Part shown: positions 4 to 16,109 of the stretch, one piece after another | Position numbering within the stretch: position 1 is the first letter of the stretch | How the letters are laid out: each line of letters opens with the position of its first letter | DNA from: a virus | IMG/VR virus record: IMGVR_UViG_3300009154_000171 | Span: 1-31,907 of that record | Reading direction: 5' to 3' (one strand) | Length of the DNA stretch: 31,907 bases | Program-made: the position numbers and the translations under genes | The notes under the pieces: model-generated | Databases searched by the model: none | What the model saw: only the letters and a program-made list of their open reading frames with translations | What the model was told of the DNA's origin: nothing

Positions 4-453
4 TTACATTATAGTTGTTTTAATTGATGCTGTCAATTGCCAGTTCCAAAATTCATGCTGTGCTAATCTATCTGCAAAAAAATTAAGAATTGATTGTTCA
101 CGAGAAGCATCTGCAACATCGCAAGCACTCTTTAATTTTTCAATAATATGATTGTTTGTTGTAATTAATTCAAGATACATCTGTGTGGCACTTAATTCAA
201 GCGAATCATTAATTTTTAAATCACTGTTTGCTTGTAGCTGAGCTAATCCAAATGGTGCTTTTGAATTTAATTTACGAATATTTTCTGCATATGTATCAAT
301 TGAATCAAATAGATCTTCATAGATTTCTAGGAAAAATGCGTGATCTTGCTTAAACATACGACCTTCTACATTCCAGTGATATCCGTGTGATTGTGCATAC
401 ATATTCATTGAATCTGCTTGCAGTTCTTTTAGTACCTTAATTAATGCTTCCAT
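4..453 (-). CDS. dps: Dps-like ferritin (DNA protection during starvation protein)
   Basis: The 149-residue product matches the Dps family: an all-helical ferritin that forms a 12-subunit shell, oxidises Fe(II) with peroxide and can shield DNA. Visible signature: SHGYHWNVEG near residues 22-31, followed by H38, D53 and E57. Together with H26 these have the spacing of the inter-subunit ferroxidase site. The usual second acid four residues after H38 is Leu42, with Glu43 next to it. The length is at the short end for the family, with no long Lys-rich N-terminal tail. The ATG at 453 lies 7 bases past the end of an extended -10 (TGGTATAAT), with no Shine-Dalgarno sequence, so the mRNA is probably leaderless. 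It follows a small basic protein gene. In a phage this is an accessory stress or iron-handling gene. Family assignment is confident; the role in infection is inferred. Confidence 0.88.
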   Translation of the reverse strand: MEALIKVLKELQADSMNMYAQSHGYHWNVEGRMFKQDHAFFLEIYEDLFDSIDTYAENIRKLNSKAPFGLAQLQANSDLKINDSLELSATQMYLELITTNNHIIEKLKSACDVADASREQSILNFFADRLAQHEFWNWQLTASIKTTIM

Positions 454-678: not shown

Positions 679-706
679 TTGCGTGAAATAAATCACAATG
701 TATAAT
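679..706 (+). promoter_or_regulatory. Promoter for the lone plus-strand gene
   Basis: TTGCGT (679-684), a 16-base spacer and an exact TATAAT (701-706). The expected start point is about 713, only 3 bases before the ATG at 716. This argues against the upstream in-frame ATG at 698, which would lie inside the promoter. Confidence 0.55.
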
Positions 707-715
707 TACTTTATC

Positions 716-1015
716 ATGTCATCTATTAATATTATTCTTGCAGTTGGCGGAATTGCAACTGCTTTAGCAGCAATTGGTTATATTTTAGCAAAAGGATTTA
801 AATTTATTCAATCTGCTACAAGATTTATGGATGATTGGTACGGTACAGAAGAGTATCCAGGTGTGGTGGAAAGATTAGCACACGGTAATGCAAGATTTGA
901 TAATATTGAAAAAGAAATCAGCATAGTTAAAGCTGAATTATTTAATAACGGCGGATCATCATTGCGTGATTCAATTGATAGAATTGAAGAAGCCGTAACT
1001 AAAAAAAATAAATAA
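716..1015 (+). CDS. Small membrane-anchored phage protein, DUF2746-like
   Basis: A 99-residue product (MSSINIILAVGG…) with one N-terminal hydrophobic segment (about residues 4-25), then a short linker and a charged, partly coiled tail. The block DDWYGTEEYPGVVERL followed by ELFNNGGSSLRDSIDRIE matches a layout I know from actinophage membrane proteins of the DUF2746 type, often found near lysis genes. Their function is not settled. An in-frame ATG at 698 would add MYNYFI, but the -10 box covers 701-706, so I prefer 716 and a near-leaderless mRNA. It is the only plus-strand gene here, is divergent from the 475-618 gene and convergent with hsp20. A lysis or host-membrane role is inference. Confidence 0.75.
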   Translation: MSSINIILAVGGIATALAAIGYILAKGFKFIQSATRFMDDWYGTEEYPGVVERLAHGNARFDNIEKEISIVKAELFNNGGSSLRDSIDRIEEAVTKKNK

Positions 1016-1031
1016 AGAGCAGTTTTTGTTT

Positions 1032-1083
1032 GGGGCTTGCTCAGGCCCCTAATCTGCGACTTCCCGATGAATGGATGCAGATT
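1032..1083. terminator. Inverted repeats between convergent genes, possible terminator
   Basis: Two inverted repeats lie between the convergent genes ending at 1015 and 1097. The first, 1032-1049, has a GC-rich stem (GGGGC with GCCCC, plus T·G and T-A pairs) and a 4-base loop. The second pairs AATCTGC (1051-1057) with GCAGATT (1077-1083) around a 19-base loop and is followed by an AT-rich run. Neither has a clean U-tract, so termination is plausible from position more than from sequence. Confidence 0.4.
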
Positions 1084-1096
1084 TATATTATATACC

Positions 1097-1531
1097 TTAT
1101 TTTATTTTAATGGTCTTAGGCTTTGCTTCTTCTGGAAGTTCCCGTTCAATATTAATTGAAAGTAATCCATTTTCAAGTGAAGCAGACTTAACAATCATAT
1201 ACTCGCCCAATGTAAAGTGTTGAGTAAAGTTACGTCCAGCAATTCCACGATGCAAGAAATCAGACTTTTCATCTTTTTCTTTTTCGCTCTTAATTGTTAG
1301 AGTATCTTTTTCTACCTTAATATCAAGGTCTTCACGGGAATATCCCGCAACTGCAAGTTCAATTACATAATTGTCCTCGTCAACCTTTTTTACATTATAT
1401 GGTGGGAATTGAGATGTTGTTTTTTTATTTGATTCCCATCTTACAAACTGATCATTAAACCCTAGAAAGAACGGGTCATTAAAAATAGATTGAATTTGTA
1501 CAAATGGGTCTATATACTTTAGATGTGTCAT
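1097..1531 (-). CDS. hsp20: Hsp20 / IbpA-type small heat-shock protein
   Basis: The 144-residue product is an alpha-crystallin-domain chaperone that holds unfolding proteins in a refoldable state without ATP. Visible features: a short variable N-terminus with an aromatic DPFFLGF patch, an alpha-crystallin domain from about residue 43 (PPYNVKKVDEDNYVIELAVAGYSREDLDIKVE), the IbpA-like RGIAGRNFTQHFTLGE block, the SLENGLLSI strand, and a C-terminal IKI (I-x-I) motif used for oligomer assembly. Start chosen at the ATG at 1531, with AAAAGGAG 9 bases upstream. The gene has its own extended -10 promoter and a structured leader. sHSP genes occur in some phages (for example T4-like cyanophages); protecting virion proteins or host enzymes during infection is inferred. 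Confidence 0.92.
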   Translation of the reverse strand: MTHLKYIDPFVQIQSIFNDPFFLGFNDQFVRWESNKKTTSQFPPYNVKKVDEDNYVIELAVAGYSREDLDIKVEKDTLTIKSEKEKDEKSDFLHRGIAGRNFTQHFTLGEYMIVKSASLENGLLSINIERELPEEAKPKTIKIK

Positions 1532-1540
1532 GTTACTTAG

Positions 1541-1587
1541 CTCCTTTTCAGCAAGTTAGTTAAATTCAGAACCCTTACGGCATTCTG
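1541..1587 (-). promoter_or_regulatory. Structured hsp20 leader, candidate ROSE-like RNA thermometer
   Basis: The predicted transcript begins near 1588 with a hairpin (1567-1587, CAGAA…TTCTG arms, CC/GG inner pairs, GUAA tetraloop). Further on, UUGCU (1550-1554) is followed by GAAA and then AGGA of the Shine-Dalgarno (1542-1545). UUGCU opposite AGGA is the hallmark pairing of ROSE thermometers, which control small heat-shock genes in proteobacteria. A competing fold pairs CUUGCU with AGC-U-AAG and leaves AAAAGG in the loop. The call rests on pattern and gene context only. Confidence 0.4.
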
Positions 1588-1594
1588 TATATAT

Positions 1595-1603
1595 ATTATA
1601 TCA
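1595..1603 (-). promoter_or_regulatory. Extended -10 promoter for hsp20
   Basis: Minus strand TGATATAAT, an exact extended -10, with no recognisable -35. It places the transcript start near 1588, giving a leader of about 57 bases that begins with a hairpin. Confidence 0.55.
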
Positions 1604-2661: not shown

Positions 2662-2732
2662 CTCCCTGACCTGGATTCGAACCAAGATACCCGCCTCCAA
2701 AGGGCGGTGTCCTACCGTTAGACGATCTGGGA
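2662..2732 (-). tRNA. tRNA-Gln (anticodon UUG)
   Basis: 71 bases. The acceptor TCCCAGA pairs with TCAGGGA with one A·A mismatch. The anticodon stem CCGCC/GGCGG closes the loop CTTTGGA, giving anticodon TTG. The T arm carries GGTTCGAATCC. U1-A72 and discriminator G73 fit glutamine tRNAs. No CCA is encoded. It reads CAA, a favoured codon in AT-rich genes. It starts one base after the CCA of tRNA-Ser. Confidence 0.9.
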
Positions 2733-2733
2733 A

Positions 2734-2824
2734 TGGCGGAAGATGTAGGATTCGAACCTACGGTAGTTTTTAACACTACGATCAGTTAGCAACCGATTGC
2801 TTTAGACCACTCAGCCAATCTTCC
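2734..2824 (-). tRNA. tRNA-Ser (anticodon GCU), CCA encoded
   Basis: Acceptor GGAAGAT/ATCTTCC is perfect. The anticodon loop TTGCTAA gives GCT. A long variable arm (GTAGT…ACTAC) shows a class II tRNA, as expected for serine. G73 is followed by an encoded CCA (2734-2736), the only tRNA in the array with one. It reads AGC and AGT. Confidence 0.92.
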
Positions 2825-2825
2825 G

Positions 2826-2898
2826 TACCCATAGTTGGATTTGAACCAACGCTTTCACGATTTTAAGTCGTGTGCCTCTACCACTGGGCTATAAGGGC
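2826..2898 (-). tRNA. tRNA-Leu (anticodon UAA) with class I variable loop
   Basis: 73 bases. The anticodon loop CTTAAAA within stem CACGA/TCGTG gives anticodon TAA, which reads the leucine codon UUA. The T arm GTTGG-TTCAAAT-CCAAC is normal. G1·U72 with A73 and a GCCC start match bacterial tRNA-Leu(UAA) as I recall it from E. coli. The variable loop is only AAAGC (5 bases), whereas bacterial leucine tRNAs have a long variable arm. The acceptor also has a U5·U68 mismatch. Identity by anticodon is clear; charging by host leucyl-tRNA synthetase is uncertain. Confidence 0.8.
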
Positions 2899-2902
2899 TT
2901 AG

Positions 2903-2973
2903 AGCGAATAGCGAGAATCGAACTCGCACATTAACCTTGGCAAGGTTACGCACTACCACTATGCAATATTCGC
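2903..2973 (-). tRNA. tRNA-Gly (anticodon GCC)
   Basis: 71 bases. The acceptor GCGAATA/TATTCGC is perfect. Stem TAACC/GGTTA closes the loop TTGCCAA, giving anticodon GCC. The D arm TGCATAGTGGTAGTGC and discriminator U73 are typical of bacterial tRNA-Gly. No CCA is encoded. Confidence 0.92.
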
Positions 2974-2976
2974 AGG

Positions 2977-3100
2977 GGCTATAAACGATTGCGACTTCCA
3001 GTTGCACATGACGTACATGCTGTATCTGTCTCACACGCCACTCATCCGAGTTTCGGGTGTATATGTAACTATAACATCCTAAGTTGTGTCGTTTATAGCC
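2977..3100. ncRNA. Structured element inside the tRNA array, candidate non-coding RNA
   Basis: A 124-base stretch closed by a perfect 12-base-pair helix (2977-2988 with 3089-3100, GGCTATAAACGA and its complement). It sits 3 bases from tRNA-Gly and 3 bases from tRNA-Met/Ile, so it fills the place of a tRNA in the array. Inner hairpins: 2991-3005 (GCGAC, loop TTCCA, GTTGC) and 3043-3059 (CATCCGA, loop GTT, TCGGGTG). Each has one pair that is G·U if plus-strand RNA is made but A·C in minus-strand RNA, and the outer helix also gains a U·G pair (2989-3088) on plus. This favours the plus strand, while the tight packing favours co-transcription with the minus-strand tRNAs. It has no tRNA cloverleaf and no open frame. 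Function unknown. Confidence 0.5.
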
Positions 3101-3103
3101 TTG

Positions 3104-3177
3104 TAGAGCAAGTAGGACTTGAACCTACGATTACCGAATTATGAGTTCGGGGCTTTAACCAACTAAGCTATTGCTCC
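3104..3177 (-). tRNA. tRNA with anticodon CAU (elongator Met or lysidine-modified Ile)
   Basis: 74 bases. The acceptor GGAGCAA pairs with TTGCTCT, with G1·U72 as the only wobble. Stem CCGAA/TTCGG closes loop CTCATAA, giving anticodon CAT. The D arm AGCTTAGTTGGTTAAAGC and the T arm are normal. An initiator tRNA would normally show a 1-72 mismatch and three G-C pairs in the anticodon stem; this has neither. Met elongator and Ile2 (AUA reader) cannot be separated by eye; AUA decoding would make sense in an AT-rich phage. Confidence 0.88.
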
Positions 3178-3185
3178 CTATTTAA

Positions 3186-3425
3186 TTATGCGTGTGGAGG
3201 TTTTTTTGCTTTATTTTCTTTTATTTTATGCCGCTCATCAATAGTTTCATATGCAAACACTGATAATGCTTTTTCATTTTTTGCGTAGTGATGACCGCAA
3301 AACATAAGTTGACCTGTTACGCCTTTTACTAAAACTAAGGCTTCTGCATAACATTGATCGCAACGATCAAGTGGGCTTAATACATACTGTACTTCTTCTG
3401 CAACTGATTCTATTGTCATATTCAT
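3186..3425 (-). CDS. Small Cys/His protein, DUF7455-like
   Basis: A 79-residue product beginning MNMTIESVAEEV. The core LDRCDQCYAEALVLV…GQLMFCGHHYAKNEKAL has CxxC followed by CxHH, a compact zinc-binding layout I associate with a small actinobacterial family (DUF7455), function unknown. The C-terminus is Lys-rich. The open frame continues upstream to 3518, but that part is tRNA-Asn read through in frame, so it is not coding. Two in-frame ATGs (3425, 3419) follow a TATAAT at 3427-3432. If that box is used, 3419 would be a leaderless start; if the tRNA transcript reads through, 3425 behind AGAGAGAG is better. The gene sits inside the tRNA array. Confidence 0.7.
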   Translation of the reverse strand: MNMTIESVAEEVQYVLSPLDRCDQCYAEALVLVKGVTGQLMFCGHHYAKNEKALSVFAYETIDERHKIKENKAKKPPHA

Positions 3426-3426
3426 A

Positions 3427-3432
3427 ATTATA
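3427..3432 (-). promoter_or_regulatory. Possible -10 box before the small Cys/His protein
   Basis: An exact TATAAT on the minus strand, 7 bases before the ATG at 3419. There is no TG extension and only a weak -35-like TTACAA, so this is tentative. It would separate transcription of the downstream tRNAs from tRNA-Asn. Confidence 0.35.
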
Positions 3433-3460
3433 CTCTCTCTAGTAGTTGTTTTGTAATTTG

Positions 3461-3533
3461 CTGGCCCACCAGGTCTCGATCCTGGGACATTCGAATTAAC
3501 AGTTCGACGCTCTACCAACTGAGCTATGGGCCA
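3461..3533 (-). tRNA. tRNA-Asn (anticodon GUU)
   Basis: 73 bases. The acceptor TGGCCCA/TGGGCCA is perfect with U1-A72 and G73, typical of asparagine tRNA. Stem TCGAA/TTCGA closes loop CTGTTAA, giving anticodon GTT. The D arm TAGCTCAGTTGGTAGAGC is canonical. It is the first tRNA transcribed in the array, separated from the others by the small Cys/His protein gene. No CCA is encoded (GCAA follows). Confidence 0.93.
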
Positions 3534-3870: not shown

Positions 3871-5718
3871 TCAGAGCATACGAATGCTGTCAATAGGAGA
3901 TTCATCTTCATCTTCTTCTATTCCTAGATAATCCCGCAAATTTGATGGCATCTCTTCTCTATCTGGAAGCTTAATTGTTTTATTTCTAATAAGTCTGGCA
4001 TCTGATTCTTTTCTTAATTGATCTAATTCATCTGAAAATACCCCAGCGTAAGTATATAGTTCAACTTCAGGGTTTATGTCCCTAGGTGTTAACGCTACTG
4101 AGTTGTATATAGCCCCGCAAACGGCATCTGAGAGGTCCTTAGAGCCCTTTCGGGGGTGGTCTACCTTATCCTTTACAATACGCAATTGAAGCAGTTCATC
4201 AATCAGCAGTTGAATCCTGGGTCCGTCTACCCGCTCTTCAGTAATACATAGTGACATATCCTCGTAATGCTTTTTAGCAACAGACAAAGTTTCACAATTC
4301 ATTCCATGAGCTTTTAACTGTTGCATCATATCGTGTGAATTCCAACGGTCAAATGTAACCATCTTAATATTAAATCCACGTTCTCTTAAACTAATTATAT
4401 ATTCTTTTACTTCTGTAAAATCTACTGATCGTGATGATGTAGGTGTCCAAAATCTTACTGCGTCTACTATAATTCTTGGGGCTGCTTCTTTCATCTTGTC
4501 CCCAATTTTCATTGTAACCCAATTATGAACATGAGCTAATGCTACGGCACAATGGTCATGTTTTTGTGCAAGGTCAACGTGAATGTAGTACCATTTTTCT
4601 GGATCTGGTTTAAAAGTATCAGCAAAGCGACCATACGAATCTACATTTAAATTAGGATTTGCAAATGCTTTTTCAATTACTGCACGGTTTTTAAAGAAAG
4701 CGTCTGTTGCATCTGGTGGCATACAAGCAAAACGAGATAACGCATCAGTTGGGTCTGTATAAAAATCAATAGTAAAATCTGTTATTTTACGTGTAGGATT
4801 TACCTCCCATGTTGGTCTTTTAAGTGCATATACTCTAGGAATTTTGTAGGAAACAATATGATCTTCTTCCCATTCCATTTCAAATTCATTTCCCTCCACG
4901 CCATCTGGCAACTCTGGATCTACTTTAAATTTCCAATGTCGTAATATAACTTCTTTTTCAGCAATAACGTCATTATATCTTTGTTGAATGTAATCATTTT
5001 TAAAACGTGGAAATGAAAGCAAAATTACTTTGCCAAAATCTGGAAAACGAGAGTTTACAGATGCACGATACATCTTATATATAGATGATGCTGTCTTTGC
5101 TTGTTCATTCCCAGATGTTGACTCTAGGTCAAAACCTGAAATTTCATCAAGAATAACAACAAGAACGTTATATCCTTCCCAAGCTTCTCTTTCTGAGTGA
5201 CCTGAGTGAACTGTAACGCCTTTATCAAATTCAACCATGTTAGCTTTTGATATATACTTGCCTTGAAACCAAGGTGATTTTTCAATACGTTGGTTAAATC
5301 CTTTAAAGAATACTCGATTTGCCTGAACTGCGTTAATAGCAATGTTAATAATATCAATTGCATCGCCTGGGGGTTTGCCATAATATCTGGCAGGATCTGT
5401 AAGACAAAGAAGTAAATGCACCATATATGCACAAGCAATAGTAGAAGTATAGTCCTTACCAGAACCCTTACCAAGTTGTAGAATTACTTCATTACATGTT
5501 TGTTTAAATATCTTGCGACCTTCATCTTCCCCATAAATTTTAATTAGGGTTTCTTGCTTATAAATTTGAGTAGATGCTTTGATCATTGTGTATTGATGTT
5601 CTGATAAAGAAGGTAAGCCTAAGTAATCTCTGCTTGTTACAAACTCTTCAAGAGGTGCTGGTTTTTCTACAAACTCATCACCTTCAAGAGCATCTAAAAA
5701 AATGTTAAATTCGGACAT
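3871..5718 (-). CDS. terL: Terminase large subunit
   Basis: 615 residues. The ATPase motor that pumps DNA into the prohead and the nuclease that cuts concatemers. ATPase domain: Walker A GKGSGKD at 83-89 and Walker B VVILDE at 187-192. Nuclease domain of RNase H fold: D382 in IHVDLAQKHDH, D457 in VTFDRWNSHD and D528/D531 in KDLSDAV, the expected acidic metal ligands. Length is normal for a full two-domain TerL. The ATG at 5718 overlaps the small terminase stop (TAATG), so translation is coupled. It acts at the portal vertex with TerS. The C-terminal 65 residues after the nuclease are acidic and less conserved in character. Confident. Confidence 0.93.
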   Translation of the reverse strand: MSEFNIFLDALEGDEFVEKPAPLEEFVTSRDYLGLPSLSEHQYTMIKASTQIYKQETLIKIYGEDEGRKIFKQTCNEVILQLGKGSGKDYTSTIACAYMVHLLLCLTDPARYYGKPPGDAIDIINIAINAVQANRVFFKGFNQRIEKSPWFQGKYISKANMVEFDKGVTVHSGHSEREAWEGYNVLVVILDEISGFDLESTSGNEQAKTASSIYKMYRASVNSRFPDFGKVILLSFPRFKNDYIQQRYNDVIAEKEVILRHWKFKVDPELPDGVEGNEFEMEWEEDHIVSYKIPRVYALKRPTWEVNPTRKITDFTIDFYTDPTDALSRFACMPPDATDAFFKNRAVIEKAFANPNLNVDSYGRFADTFKPDPEKWYYIHVDLAQKHDHCAVALAHVHNWVTMKIGDKMKEAAPRIIVDAVRFWTPTSSRSVDFTEVKEYIISLRERGFNIKMVTFDRWNSHDMMQQLKAHGMNCETLSVAKKHYEDMSLCITEERVDGPRIQLLIDELLQLRIVKDKVDHPRKGSKDLSDAVCGAIYNSVALTPRDINPEVELYTYAGVFSDELDQLRKESDARLIRNKTIKLPDREEMPSNLRDYLGIEEDEDESPIDSIRML

Positions 5719-12621: not shown

Positions 12622-12834
12622 TTATTCATTTTCTGTTTGTGGTGTTTCTGCCAATTCAAATCTAATAATTTTGCTATCTGGATTTTGATCCACAGCAATA
12701 CTTTTAGATGAATAATTATCTAACAATTCTTCTACTGAAAGCTCAATAGAACCTAATTTATTTAATATTGCAGCAATAATTTGCTCAATACTAATATTAA
12801 AATTGTTAATATTGTCGTTTGTCTCTTCAGTCAT
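12622..12834 (-). CDS. Hypothetical acidic protein after dnaE
   Basis: 70 residues, acidic and Asn/Ile-rich, with a helical centre (SIEQIIAAILNKLGSIELSVEE is broken across two helices). No Cys or catalytic motif. AAGGAGG lies 6 bases before the ATG at 12834, inside the dnaE 3' end, and the ATG overlaps the dnaE stop (TAATG). Clearly coupled to the polymerase gene. Unknown family. Confidence 0.65.
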   Translation of the reverse strand: MTEETNDNINNFNISIEQIIAAILNKLGSIELSVEELLDNYSSKSIAVDQNPDSKIIRFELAETPQTENE

Positions 12835-15800
12835 TAGCCTACCTCCTTTACGTATACTGTTCCATCTTCCATTTCAGCAATTGCAGGATCGCATATCTTT
12901 CCCGCCTGCATTTTACCCAGAGCTTTTGTGTAAAGTTTTGGAAAAACAATAACACGCTCTAAACTTTTATCCGCATCTGACAAGATAATATGAGCCATCA
13001 TTTTATTAGCTTTTGTTTTGTAATGTGTAAAATCAAGAACTAATCTTTTTCCTGATTCAATCTTTAATTTATCTCTGTAAAGCCATTGAACAAATGGATC
13101 ATCTATCTTATTTACCACATCATCAATTGTTAAATACTTATGAATACGGTTATCTCCTACTAAGAAGAAATACATCATTCCCGCCTCAATCTTAGTATTA
13201 ACCTCATGAAAAATACCTACCGAGCCTGTATCATCTACAAGCTCAATTCTAGACCATGTAGGGCCTTTCTTAATTGATTTAACCATAGCAAGTAATACAA
13301 AACAACCACTTTCAAGAAAGTCTTGCAAAGGATTAACCTGTGCTTTAATCTTTGGCGTTAACTTACCAGTATCAAACTTTGGAATTCCAAGGTACTCATA
13401 TAGGTTTTCATTTTCATTTCCAAGGCGTGGGTTGTCTGGAAAAGCTGAAGCACCAATCATATTAAGAGACTCTAAAGCTCTTGAGTTGATTCCGCTACCT
13501 TTTTCTTTAGCTTTTTCTGTAAACTCTGCATATGTTTTGAAAGGTCTTAAAGCAGTTATTTTACTTCCAATGTTATCAGAAATATATTTAATATTTGACA
13601 AACCAAATCTTATTGAGTTTCCTTGAATGCTAAAGTCAAGATCAGATTCATTTACATGGGGTAGTAATACCTTAATTCCCAATCGCTTAGCCTCAAGGAG
13701 GTAGTCTGTTCTGGCATCTTTGTCTTTTTCATTTTTAAGAATGGCAAACATAAACTCAAGAGGATAATAACATTTAAGCCAAGCCGTATAATAAGAGAGC
13801 ATAGAATAAGCAATAGCGTGGGAACGATTAAAAGAATAACCTGCGTGAGCTTCAAAATCATGCCAAAGCTTTGCCGCATCCTCTGGTGTAATATGATTTG
13901 AAGCGCCTGTGATAAACTGTTCTTTATATACGTCAAACTCTTTTGCATCTTTCTTCTTTCCAATAATCTTTCTAACCTTATCAGCATCAGCCCATGACAT
14001 TCCGCCTAAGTGTACGCAAGCCTGCATAACCTGCTCCTGATAAATAATAACTCCATATGTTCTTGCAGTAAACTCTTGCATAATTGGGTGAGCGTATGCA
14101 ACCATTTCTTCACCACGCTTACGCCTAATGTAAGCACCACCTACAGTATTCATAGCACCTGGACGAACCAAAGCGTTAGATGCTGCAAGATCTTCAAACT
14201 TATCTACACCCATCTTAATAAGAAGGTTTGTGTATGGCGTTGCTTCTGCTTGAAACACTCCCTTTGTAAAACCATTTGAAAGGTTTTCATAAACCTTTGG
14301 GTCATCAAACTTAATATCCTTAAGATTAATATCTTTCTTTTTTACGTGTTTGATTGTTCTAATTGCATCATCAATAACAGATAATGTTTTTAGCCCAAGT
14401 ACGTCAAGCTTGATAAGTCCTAGGTCTGCTGTTTGATCCATATCATATGCAACAACTGGAATACGACCTGATATTGAATCATTTGGATCTTTGCGTGTTT
14501 CAATAGGAACATACTTACTAATGTCATCTTTTGCAACTACAACTCCCGCTGCATGCATACCATTTCCACGAATTTTTCCACGAAGCATAGAAGCATACTT
14601 AGTCACTTCAGGATACTTGGTGCGAAACTCTTGTGTACTTTGACTTGATTCATATTCTTCAAATGTTTCAACACCCTTAAGTGCTCTATCTACTTCGCCA
14701 AGTGGCACAAGCAAAGCTCTAGCAACGTCTCTTACAACACCTTTATCCTTAAAATACTGGTATGTAGAAATAGAAGCAACGTGTTTAAACTTCTTGCGAA
14801 GATATTCTTTAACTTCTCCACGGCGACGATCCATAAAGTCTGTATCAATATCGGGAAAGTCATTACGTTCTGGGTTAATAAATCTAAAGAACAGCAAATC
14901 GTATTCAATTGGATCTACCTCTGTAATACCCAAAAGATAACATACTAAAGATCCTGCTGCTGATCCTCTTCCTGGTCCAACAAGGATTTCATTTGTTTTT
15001 GCCCAACCAACCATATCGCTGACAACAAGGAAATAGCTAGCAAAGTTTTTATCGGAAATAACTTGGAGCTCTTCTTTAAGTCTTTCTTTATACGCTTCAT
15101 CTTGTAACCCCTTTTCTTCTAGCGCTTTGTTACACATATCTTTTAATGTCTTTAATGCATTCTTTTTAGGAACTGGAAGTAAATCTAAGTTCTCATGAAA
15201 ATCATATATGTCAATCTTGTCAGCAATCTCTACTGATGTTTGATAAATGTCTTCTCTTGTAATCCCCGCTTTTTTAAAGTCCGCTTTAATCTCATCATAG
15301 GATTGAATATAAACGTTAATATCAGCGAAAGAGATAGGGCGATTGGGATAAAAATAATCAAACCTATCAATAAGATTAGTATGTACACGACCACTTGCAT
15401 GGTCTGCTTCTTTATTTTGAGCTGGTTTAGTAGAAAGGATAAGAAGTAATTCTTCCAAATCTCTTTCTTCTTTTTTAGCAAAATGACAATCTCCTGTAGC
15501 AACTGGCTGTATCCCCAATTCATCAGCAATCTTTAACAATTCTGAATTTAAATTATCTGGGTTATGAGCTTGTACTTCTATATAGAAATCTTTTTCAAAA
15601 CGTGTTTTAAATGTTTTAGCAATATCTTTTGCTTTATCATTTTCTCCACGCTCAATAGCCTTTGATATAAGACCATTCATGCAACCAGATATTACAATTA
15701 TACCGTCACCGTACTCAAATAGTACTTCCATATCAATACGTGGCTTATGATAATAACCTTCAGTCCAAGCAATCTGTGAAAGCTTTTGAAGGTTCTTAAC

Positions 15801-16109
15801 TCCTAAGTCATCTTTTGCAAGCAAGATAATGTGATTGTATAGAGATGTATTATCATCACGCTTTGAAACTGCTCTCTTGTCAAACCTATCTGTTGAAGAT
15901 ATATACGCTTCTAGACCAAGTATTGGTTTCATCCCCAGCTCTTTTGCAGCAATCTGCATATCTCTATGTGCTGCTAAAGATCCGTGATCTGTGATAGCCA
16001 AACATGTCTGACTTTGATTTTTTGCAGCCTCAAGTAATTCATGGGGTGTATTTAAACCATCCATAAGCGAATAGTGCGAATGGACATGCAAATGAACAAA
16101 GTCAGACAT
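12834..16109 (-). CDS. dnaE: DNA polymerase III alpha subunit
   Basis: 1091 residues, full-length bacterial-type C-family replicative polymerase. PHP domain: HLHVHSHYS (residues 6-14) and ITDHGS (39-44). Palm: GPGRGSAAGS (378-387) and FPDIDTDF (418-425), with D420 and D422 as the catalytic pair. Finger and helix-hairpin-helix region: YQEQVMQACVHLGGMSWADAD and HAGYSFNRSHAIAY, as in DnaE. The C-terminal OB fold (GPTWSRIELVDDTGSVGIFHE) and tail follow. The PHP His/Asp residues look intact, so its proofreading-type activity may be present. The ATG at 16109 has only a weak AGAAAG site, 24 bases after ssb. It replaces the Pol A-type enzyme many phages use. Confidence 0.95.
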   Translation of the reverse strand: MSDFVHLHVHSHYSLMDGLNTPHELLEAAKNQSQTCLAITDHGSLAAHRDMQIAAKELGMKPILGLEAYISSTDRFDKRAVSKRDDNTSLYNHIILLAKDDLGVKNLQKLSQIAWTEGYYHKPRIDMEVLFEYGDGIIVISGCMNGLISKAIERGENDKAKDIAKTFKTRFEKDFYIEVQAHNPDNLNSELLKIADELGIQPVATGDCHFAKKEERDLEELLLILSTKPAQNKEADHASGRVHTNLIDRFDYFYPNRPISFADINVYIQSYDEIKADFKKAGITREDIYQTSVEIADKIDIYDFHENLDLLPVPKKNALKTLKDMCNKALEEKGLQDEAYKERLKEELQVISDKNFASYFLVVSDMVGWAKTNEILVGPGRGSAAGSLVCYLLGITEVDPIEYDLLFFRFINPERNDFPDIDTDFMDRRRGEVKEYLRKKFKHVASISTYQYFKDKGVVRDVARALLVPLGEVDRALKGVETFEEYESSQSTQEFRTKYPEVTKYASMLRGKIRGNGMHAAGVVVAKDDISKYVPIETRKDPNDSISGRIPVVAYDMDQTADLGLIKLDVLGLKTLSVIDDAIRTIKHVKKKDINLKDIKFDDPKVYENLSNGFTKGVFQAEATPYTNLLIKMGVDKFEDLAASNALVRPGAMNTVGGAYIRRKRGEEMVAYAHPIMQEFTARTYGVIIYQEQVMQACVHLGGMSWADADKVRKIIGKKKDAKEFDVYKEQFITGASNHITPEDAAKLWHDFEAHAGYSFNRSHAIAYSMLSYYTAWLKCYYPLEFMFAILKNEKDKDARTDYLLEAKRLGIKVLLPHVNESDLDFSIQGNSIRFGLSNIKYISDNIGSKITALRPFKTYAEFTEKAKEKGSGINSRALESLNMIGASAFPDNPRLGNENENLYEYLGIPKFDTGKLTPKIKAQVNPLQDFLESGCFVLLAMVKSIKKGPTWSRIELVDDTGSVGIFHEVNTKIEAGMMYFFLVGDNRIHKYLTIDDVVNKIDDPFVQWLYRDKLKIESGKRLVLDFTHYKTKANKMMAHIILSDADKSLERVIVFPKLYTKALGKMQAGKICDPAIAEMEDGTVYVKEVG

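Follow-up and report, generated by a model that had tools for sequence, protein, structure and literature searches.

A two-hairpin, ROSE-like leader that probably serves as an RNA thermometer of phage chaperone genes

The viral DNA analyzed here, 31,907 nucleotides long (positions 1 to 31,907 of IMG/VR record IMGVR_UViG_3300009154_000171; hereafter the window), carries a small heat-shock gene, hsp20, on its minus strand. The 57-nucleotide leader of this gene (1588 to 1532, minus strand) lies directly 5′ of the hsp20 AUG (1531 to 1529), and we consider it quite probable that it is a two-hairpin, ROSE-like RNA thermometer controlling translation of the phage small heat-shock protein. This reading is supported mainly by comparison. 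We also hold it rather likely, with a little less assurance, that in phages of very different hosts repeated ROSE-like thermometers switch hsp20, dnaK, and groES-groEL translationally; the virus would then sense temperature without the host heat-shock regulators, and ROSE elements would reach beyond small heat-shock genes, having spread with phages past the bacterial groups in which they were first described. An earlier note on this DNA had proposed a thermometer in front of hsp20; the ROSE-like character of the leader held up, and the scope proved too narrow, because the element also precedes phage dnaK and groESL genes.

The leader is made up of the parts that the earlier note had named, each of them confirmed at its minus-strand position: an extended −10 element, a start near 1588, a GUAA hairpin, and UUGCU, GAAA, and AGGA in that order. 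The extended −10 promoter element TGATATAAT occupies 1603 to 1595, and a transcript start near 1588 is plausible from its position; 70 of 81 leaders have TGNTATAAT in the stretch upstream of them. Rule-based parsing gives hairpin 1 at 1587 to 1567 (CAGAAU[G]CC-GUAA-GGGUUCUG, with the GUAA cap), in which pairs C1587-G1567 to A1583-U1571 are followed by U1582·G1572, the bulged G1581, C1580-G1573, and C1579-G1574. The hairpin is thus present as described, except that the bulged G1581, which is invariant in relatives, had gone unmentioned. An A/U-rich single-stranded linker (1566 to 1556), whose length differs among relatives, connects it to hairpin 2 (1555 to 1541), which was recognized by a match to the Rfam model ROSE_3 and from relatives. 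In its ROSE register, CUUGCU-GAAA-AGGAG, hairpin 2 is formed by C1555-G1541, U1554-A1542, U1553·G1543, the bulged G1552, C1551-G1544, and U1550-A1545, closed by a GAAA loop; UUGCU (1554 to 1550), GAAA (1549 to 1546), and the Shine-Dalgarno (SD) sequence AGGAG (1545 to 1541) are followed by nine bases and the AUG. Hairpin 1 has a bulged-G geometry like that of the thermosensing hairpin (X-[G]-CC/GG versus Y-[G]-CU/AG), with an invariant core in a freely varying stem. The whole two-hairpin element (1586 to 1538) is matched by two covariance models, R1 at 74.2 bits and R2 at 67 bits, the window itself being in the training sets, and R2 has one match in the whole record, namely, the leader element.

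In the mechanism that we propose, the mRNA would be made from the constitutive-looking, sigma-70-like extended −10 promoter, and the 5′ hairpin 1 would serve as a permanent structural and protective stem. The anti-SD CUUGCU of hairpin 2 would pair with AGGAG across the bulged G in a weak helix, which is expected to block ribosomes in the cold and to open on warming. We infer that the window leader uses this register, that the helix melts, and that Hsp20 synthesis is heat induced.

The downstream gene was taken by the earlier note for a phage hsp20, and its product is a real Hsp20: the 144-residue protein encoded at 1097 to 1531 (minus strand) matches PF00011 (E = 1.1e-18) and phrog_432 (3.7e-40). 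Elements of the ROSE class lie in the 5′ untranslated region (UTR) of a small heat-shock gene, and the leader runs up to the Hsp20 AUG; they also place U(U/C)GCU opposite the SD sequence with a bulged G, which the window has as CUU[G]CU/AGGAG. When a 601-nucleotide stretch around the leader was searched with 4,227 Rfam families, ROSE_3 (RF02523), a model built independently of the present analysis, came top by both bits and E value. In this search, of a kind that the earlier note had proposed with the Rfam ROSE models, ROSE_3 is the best structural match and is full length (model positions 1 to 69 of 69, in agreement with the two-hairpin consensus structure); its score of 27.4 bits (E = 0.0015) is nevertheless under the gathering threshold of 43, for which reason we name the element ROSE-like and do not file it under ROSE_3. 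In a search of the whole window, ROSE_3 (E = 0.079) was the best match outside tRNAs and tRNA-overlapping matches. Sub-threshold ROSE_3 matches also occur in Melnitz-3, Atu_ph07, C48C1, and second elements beside phage dnaK genes, and the Pseudomonas phage Y7 record reaches 69 bits; ten more distant IMG/VR hsp20 loci gave no ROSE_3 match at E values up to 1. Judging from its architecture, ROSE_3 appears to correspond to the Pseudomonas ibpA two-hairpin element. RF00435, which we take to be the classical ROSE of rhizobia, and RF01832, presumably the ROSE_2 of enterobacterial ibpA, had no matches in the leader stretch at E values up to 10. A fourU thermometer was ruled out, since it needs a run of four U residues paired with the SD sequence and the anti-SD strand here reads CUUGCU.

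The same architecture is widely conserved. The window and 80 IMG/VR loci with Hsp20 relatives (97 to 47% identity) yielded 60 distinct leaders, and almost all of them run from hairpin 1 through an A/U linker to a hairpin 2 that covers the SD sequence; the stem of hairpin 1 varies freely around a fixed core, X-[G]-CC-loop-GG-G. The element is found in the Pelagibacter phages Mosig, HTVC008M, and HTVC115P, in the cyanophages S-CRM01, P-TIM40, Syn33, syn9, and S-RSM4, and in Melnitz-3, C48C1, Agrobacterium phage Atu_ph07, and Sinorhizobium phage Phosso. R1, for which eight leaders from the window's clade were used, matched 61 times across 382 kb of phage DNA searched on both strands, always in an hsp20 leader on the coding strand, and R2 located the element in 74 of 76 hsp20 sources, the sources searched overlapping the training sets of the two models. 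Whole phage genomes mostly gave a single R2 match each, 5′ of hsp20.

Covariation supports both hairpins. Since full-leader MAFFT alignments set either hairpin 2 or the 3′ strand of hairpin 1 in the wrong place, alignments were made from a gapless seed with a covariance model. Over 70 distinct rows (alignment A8), standard pairs fill 99.4% of cells, compared with 80.2% after shuffling and 65 to 67% when the pairing is slid by one column, and double-sided changes affect 186 cells versus 48.7 in shuffles, with 10 of 12 pairs showing double changes. Among relatives, six of the seven modeled pairs of hairpin 1 and four of the five pairs of hairpin 2 have double-sided changes, and 99.0 and 100% of their cells, respectively, are paired. 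Hairpin 1 has its bulged G in 74 of 74 cases, and hairpin 2 has its own in each of the 69 rows with a letter in that column. The anti-SD and SD strands change together, from C-G to U-A in many leaders, to G-C in S-RSM4, and to CAC/GUG in S-TIM54; by inspection, S-RSM4 (GUC[G]CUU/AAGGAC) and S-TIM54 (CAC[G]CUU/AAGGUG) have an altered SD sequence that the anti-SD has followed. Two results are model free, the parse of hairpin 1 and a rule-based count of hairpin 2. The latter bears on a test set beforehand in the earlier note, that related phages should keep the UUGCU/AGGA complementarity, and they do: a hairpin of 3 bp, a bulged G, and 2 bp over the SD sequence is possible in 74 of 75 distinct hsp20 leaders, compared with 12% when the bases 5′ of the SD sequence are shuffled and 14% at other phage GGAG starts. 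Some relatives combine the same RNA element with a T4-late-like promoter (TATAAATA), and this retention of the RNA under a different promoter suggests that the RNA is the regulated step.

The element is not confined to hsp20. IMG/VR pattern scans that were blind to protein returned at least 238 matches; among the matches listed, 217 of 237 downstream open reading frames (ORFs) encode Hsp20, and most of the others are Hsp20 starts cut by contig ends. The true exceptions among these listed matches are dnaK (loci L211 and L283), groES-groEL (L285), and a few small phasin-like ORFs followed by hsp20. Of 62 distinct leaders from related phage dnaK genes, 51 have a ROSE-type hairpin, as do 12 of 23 phage groES leaders. 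R2, although trained on hsp20 leaders only, detects many of the dnaK and groES elements as well as second elements just 3′ of dnaK; the 17 of these that were inspected all lie 5′ of hsp20, in a tandem of element-dnaK-element-hsp20. Hairpin 1 covaries strongly in the dnaK and groES leaders, where 174 double-sided cells were counted in all, versus 40.2 in shuffled data. Judged by sequence, hundreds of phages appear to have this design 5′ of chaperone genes of their own, a previously undescribed setting for it. Chaperone genes are frequent in phages, 505 phage records encoding a relative of the window Hsp20. Use of one design on hsp20, dnaK, and groES-groEL by many phages would amount to a phage-borne heat-shock regulon independent of host heat-shock sigma factors.

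Several of these loci are organized as modules. An element-dnaK-element-hsp20-clpS order, often beside a ClpX-like ATPase, was observed in L283 (5117 to 7027 and 7060 to 7130), L426, L448, L460, L492, and others, and such modules look like compact phage proteostasis clusters with repeated ROSE-like leaders. groES-groEL operons with a ROSE-like leader 5′ of groES are seen in L285 (3804 to 5771), L507, L513, and L536. A second phage groES group (L520 to L534) is without the element, and none was seen by eye before the distant dnaK genes of huge phages (L538, L539) or the groES genes of Roseobacter phage CRP-902 and Xanthomonas phage XaC1 (L540, L541). In T4-like phages, a small phasin-like ORF of 63 to 78 residues stands first in an element-led hsp20 operon (L226, 12970 to 13188; L238, L265, L268, L323). 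One such ORF was searched and had no Pfam or PHROG match; as first genes of phasin-hsp20 operons, the phasin-like ORFs were rejected as separate targets. Contamination was rejected as the source of the dnaK cases because the contigs carry phage genes: those with dnaK-hsp20 encode exonuclease, virion protein, pyrophosphohydrolase, and a phage ClpS-type protein. The phasin-hsp20 contigs carry a T4-like clamp, clamp loader, and RegA. For groESL, whose neighbors are mostly unnamed, the rejection is less certain. A sub-threshold betaproteobacterial tmRNA match lies at the end of one groESL viral locus (L514, 1 to 170, plus strand), a possible hint of the host.

Several observations weigh against the thermometer reading. 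The leader stays below the Rfam gathering level at which a ROSE element would be called, and Vibrio phage PWH3a-P1 has no recognizable element. Covariation of hairpin 2 is modest beside that of hairpin 1, and in the dnaK and groES leaders hairpin 2 hardly varies, with zero double changes; the covariation counts, moreover, lean toward the model because the large alignments were fitted to it. Energies raise a further difficulty, since CUUGCU can also pair with AGC-U-AAG, as the earlier note had pointed out. This hairpin (ACUUGCU/AGC-U-AAGU, 1556 to 1535, minus strand), which excludes the ROSE register and is excluded by it, does exist and is thermodynamically the stronger in the window sequence: at 25°C it has −7.0 kcal/mol, versus −1.7 for the ROSE core or −2.6 with an outer ACU/AGU helix, and at 42°C it has −4.1, versus +0.5 kcal/mol for the ROSE core. 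The nearest-neighbor model thus favors it by 4 to 5 kcal/mol, and the caution of the earlier note on this point was justified. The closing of the leader at low temperature did not appear as a clean switch upon temperature folding, in which this hairpin dominates, and predicted SD exposure in the window leader is almost flat from 4 to 50°C. Such folding is, however, a weak test, because the Pseudomonas-type yardstick leader L082 (from the phage Y7 record, unverified and probably host DNA) likewise shows only a small predicted change.

It is possible, though we lean the other way, that in the window's clade the SD sequence lies under the ACUUGCU/AGC-U-AAGU hairpin, alone or in two states with the ROSE register, as a derived and possibly bistable thermometer or a mild constant attenuator. 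Besides the energy advantage of this hairpin at both temperatures, 17 leaders have retained AGCUAAGU while their Hsp20 proteins diverged to 72% identity, and in clade member L011, which has C for U in the anti-SD and lacks the bulged U, the energies of the two folds nearly coincide (−6.9 and −6.6). On the other hand, this hairpin leaves the GG of the SD sequence in a 7-base loop, and among hsp20 leaders its sequence is confined to those 17, whereas for most relatives the lowest energy is computed for the ROSE hairpin, bulged G included. The energy rules also leave out the G·G contact of ROSE, reportedly described by Chowdhury in 2006. In our view, the element is derived from a ROSE-like thermometer and has been kept as one, and in the window's clade it may be bistable. 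A structured leader that is no thermometer, with hairpin 1 guarding the mRNA 5′ end and hairpin 2 setting a constant low translation or answering a protein or ion, seems unlikely to us. Stable 5′ hairpins are known mRNA stabilizers (discussed in PMC3669281), and the temperature response of the leader is a predicted one; yet this alternative has to face the tight association with hsp20, dnaK, and groESL, the resemblance to functional ROSE elements, and an invariant bulged G at the place where loss abolishes sensing in Pseudomonas. Hardly any credence is left for chance complementarity around an ordinary SD sequence. UYGCU near GGAG is not rare, as the 12 to 14% of shuffled or unrelated phage starts indicate, but with hairpin 2 kept in 74 of 75 leaders, covariation, a second covarying hairpin, and gene specificity, the comparative sequence data already refute this explanation.

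As to origin, most of the nearest bacterial Hsp20 proteins come from proteobacteria, and YYGCT is found near the start in 72 of 78 of those bacterial leaders, versus about 16% by base frequency, a figure that is indicative only, the start codon having been chosen partly by the motif. Gene and thermometer probably traveled together. R2 had no match in 200 bacterial genomes of one phylum, which is uninformative without a positive control; ROSE_3 matched in seven of these genomes, in three of them over the cutoff. The terminase (3871 to 5718) and DnaE-type polymerase (12834 to 16109) of the window are nearest to those of Streptomyces phages, including BillNye (Stanwilliamsviridae), at 64 to 67% and 56 to 57% identity, respectively, so the host of the window phage may be an actinobacterium. 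With a window G+C content of 34.8%, it is possibly a low-GC one. We know of no ROSE element from actinobacteria.

Near hsp20, the window encodes a second stress protein, a Ferritin/Dps-like product (4 to 453, minus strand; PF00210, E = 1e-14). Inverted repeats 3′ of hsp20 (AATCTGC..GCAGATT and GGGGC..GCCCC, 1030 to 1085, minus strand) resemble a terminator separating hsp20 from the convergent ORF at 698 to 1015 (plus strand). Upstream of ORF 1608 to 2645, whose product is a mosaic protein with a DUF2188-like segment, are six tRNA genes (2662 to 3533, minus strand).

If hsp20, dnaK, and groESL are indeed under a virus-borne thermometer, some phages would sense temperature themselves and restrict chaperone synthesis to times at which folding stress is to be expected, a point of relevance to the effect of warming on encounters between viruses and hosts in lakes and oceans. 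Cultured phages suited to testing include S-CRM01, syn9, P-TIM40, S-RSM4, Mosig, HTVC008M, and Melnitz. For mechanistic work, the family offers many naturally occurring minimal ROSE elements that covary strongly, together with a second bulged-G hairpin, hairpin 1.

We found no report of ROSE elements in phages in the open-access literature, a search that could overlook articles in subscription journals, and the words "thermometer" and "UTR" were not found in the articles examined on cyanophage small heat-shock proteins. One phage thermometer had been reported before 2023. The earlier phage cases, lambda cIII and SPbeta blyA (PMC4166951, PMC10586365), resemble the present element in having a temperature-dependent leader structure in a phage mRNA, here a predicted one. 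They differ in structure and gene, lambda cIII having two alternative conformations in lysis/lysogeny control and SPbeta blyA a fourU helix before an autolysin gene, and they are single cases, whereas the present element is a widespread chaperone-linked family. Classical ROSE and ROSE_2 share the association with small heat-shock genes and have three or four hairpins, compared with two in the phage element. The closest likeness is to the ibpA ROSE of Pseudomonas, with two hairpins directly 5′ of a small heat-shock gene, the AUG a few bases downstream, U(U/C)GCU facing AGGAG across a single bulged G in hairpin 2, and an AUGCC/GGGU core in hairpin 1 of ROSE_3. This Pseudomonas architecture is a proven thermometer, in which probing shows that hairpin II melts while hairpin I stays closed, and the element is locked shut when the bulged G39 is deleted, by itself in P. 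aeruginosa and together with U38C in P. putida (PMC3669281). Unlike it, the phage element is A/U-rich, scores below the Rfam cutoff, and has a strong competing fold in the window's clade; its promoter is a sigma-70-like extended −10, or T4-late-like in some relatives, in place of the sigma-32 promoter of ibpA; and it is carried by phages of several host phyla and stands also 5′ of dnaK and groES. Its mode of action is most likely that of a short ROSE element, and it stands out by its carriers and by the genes downstream of it.
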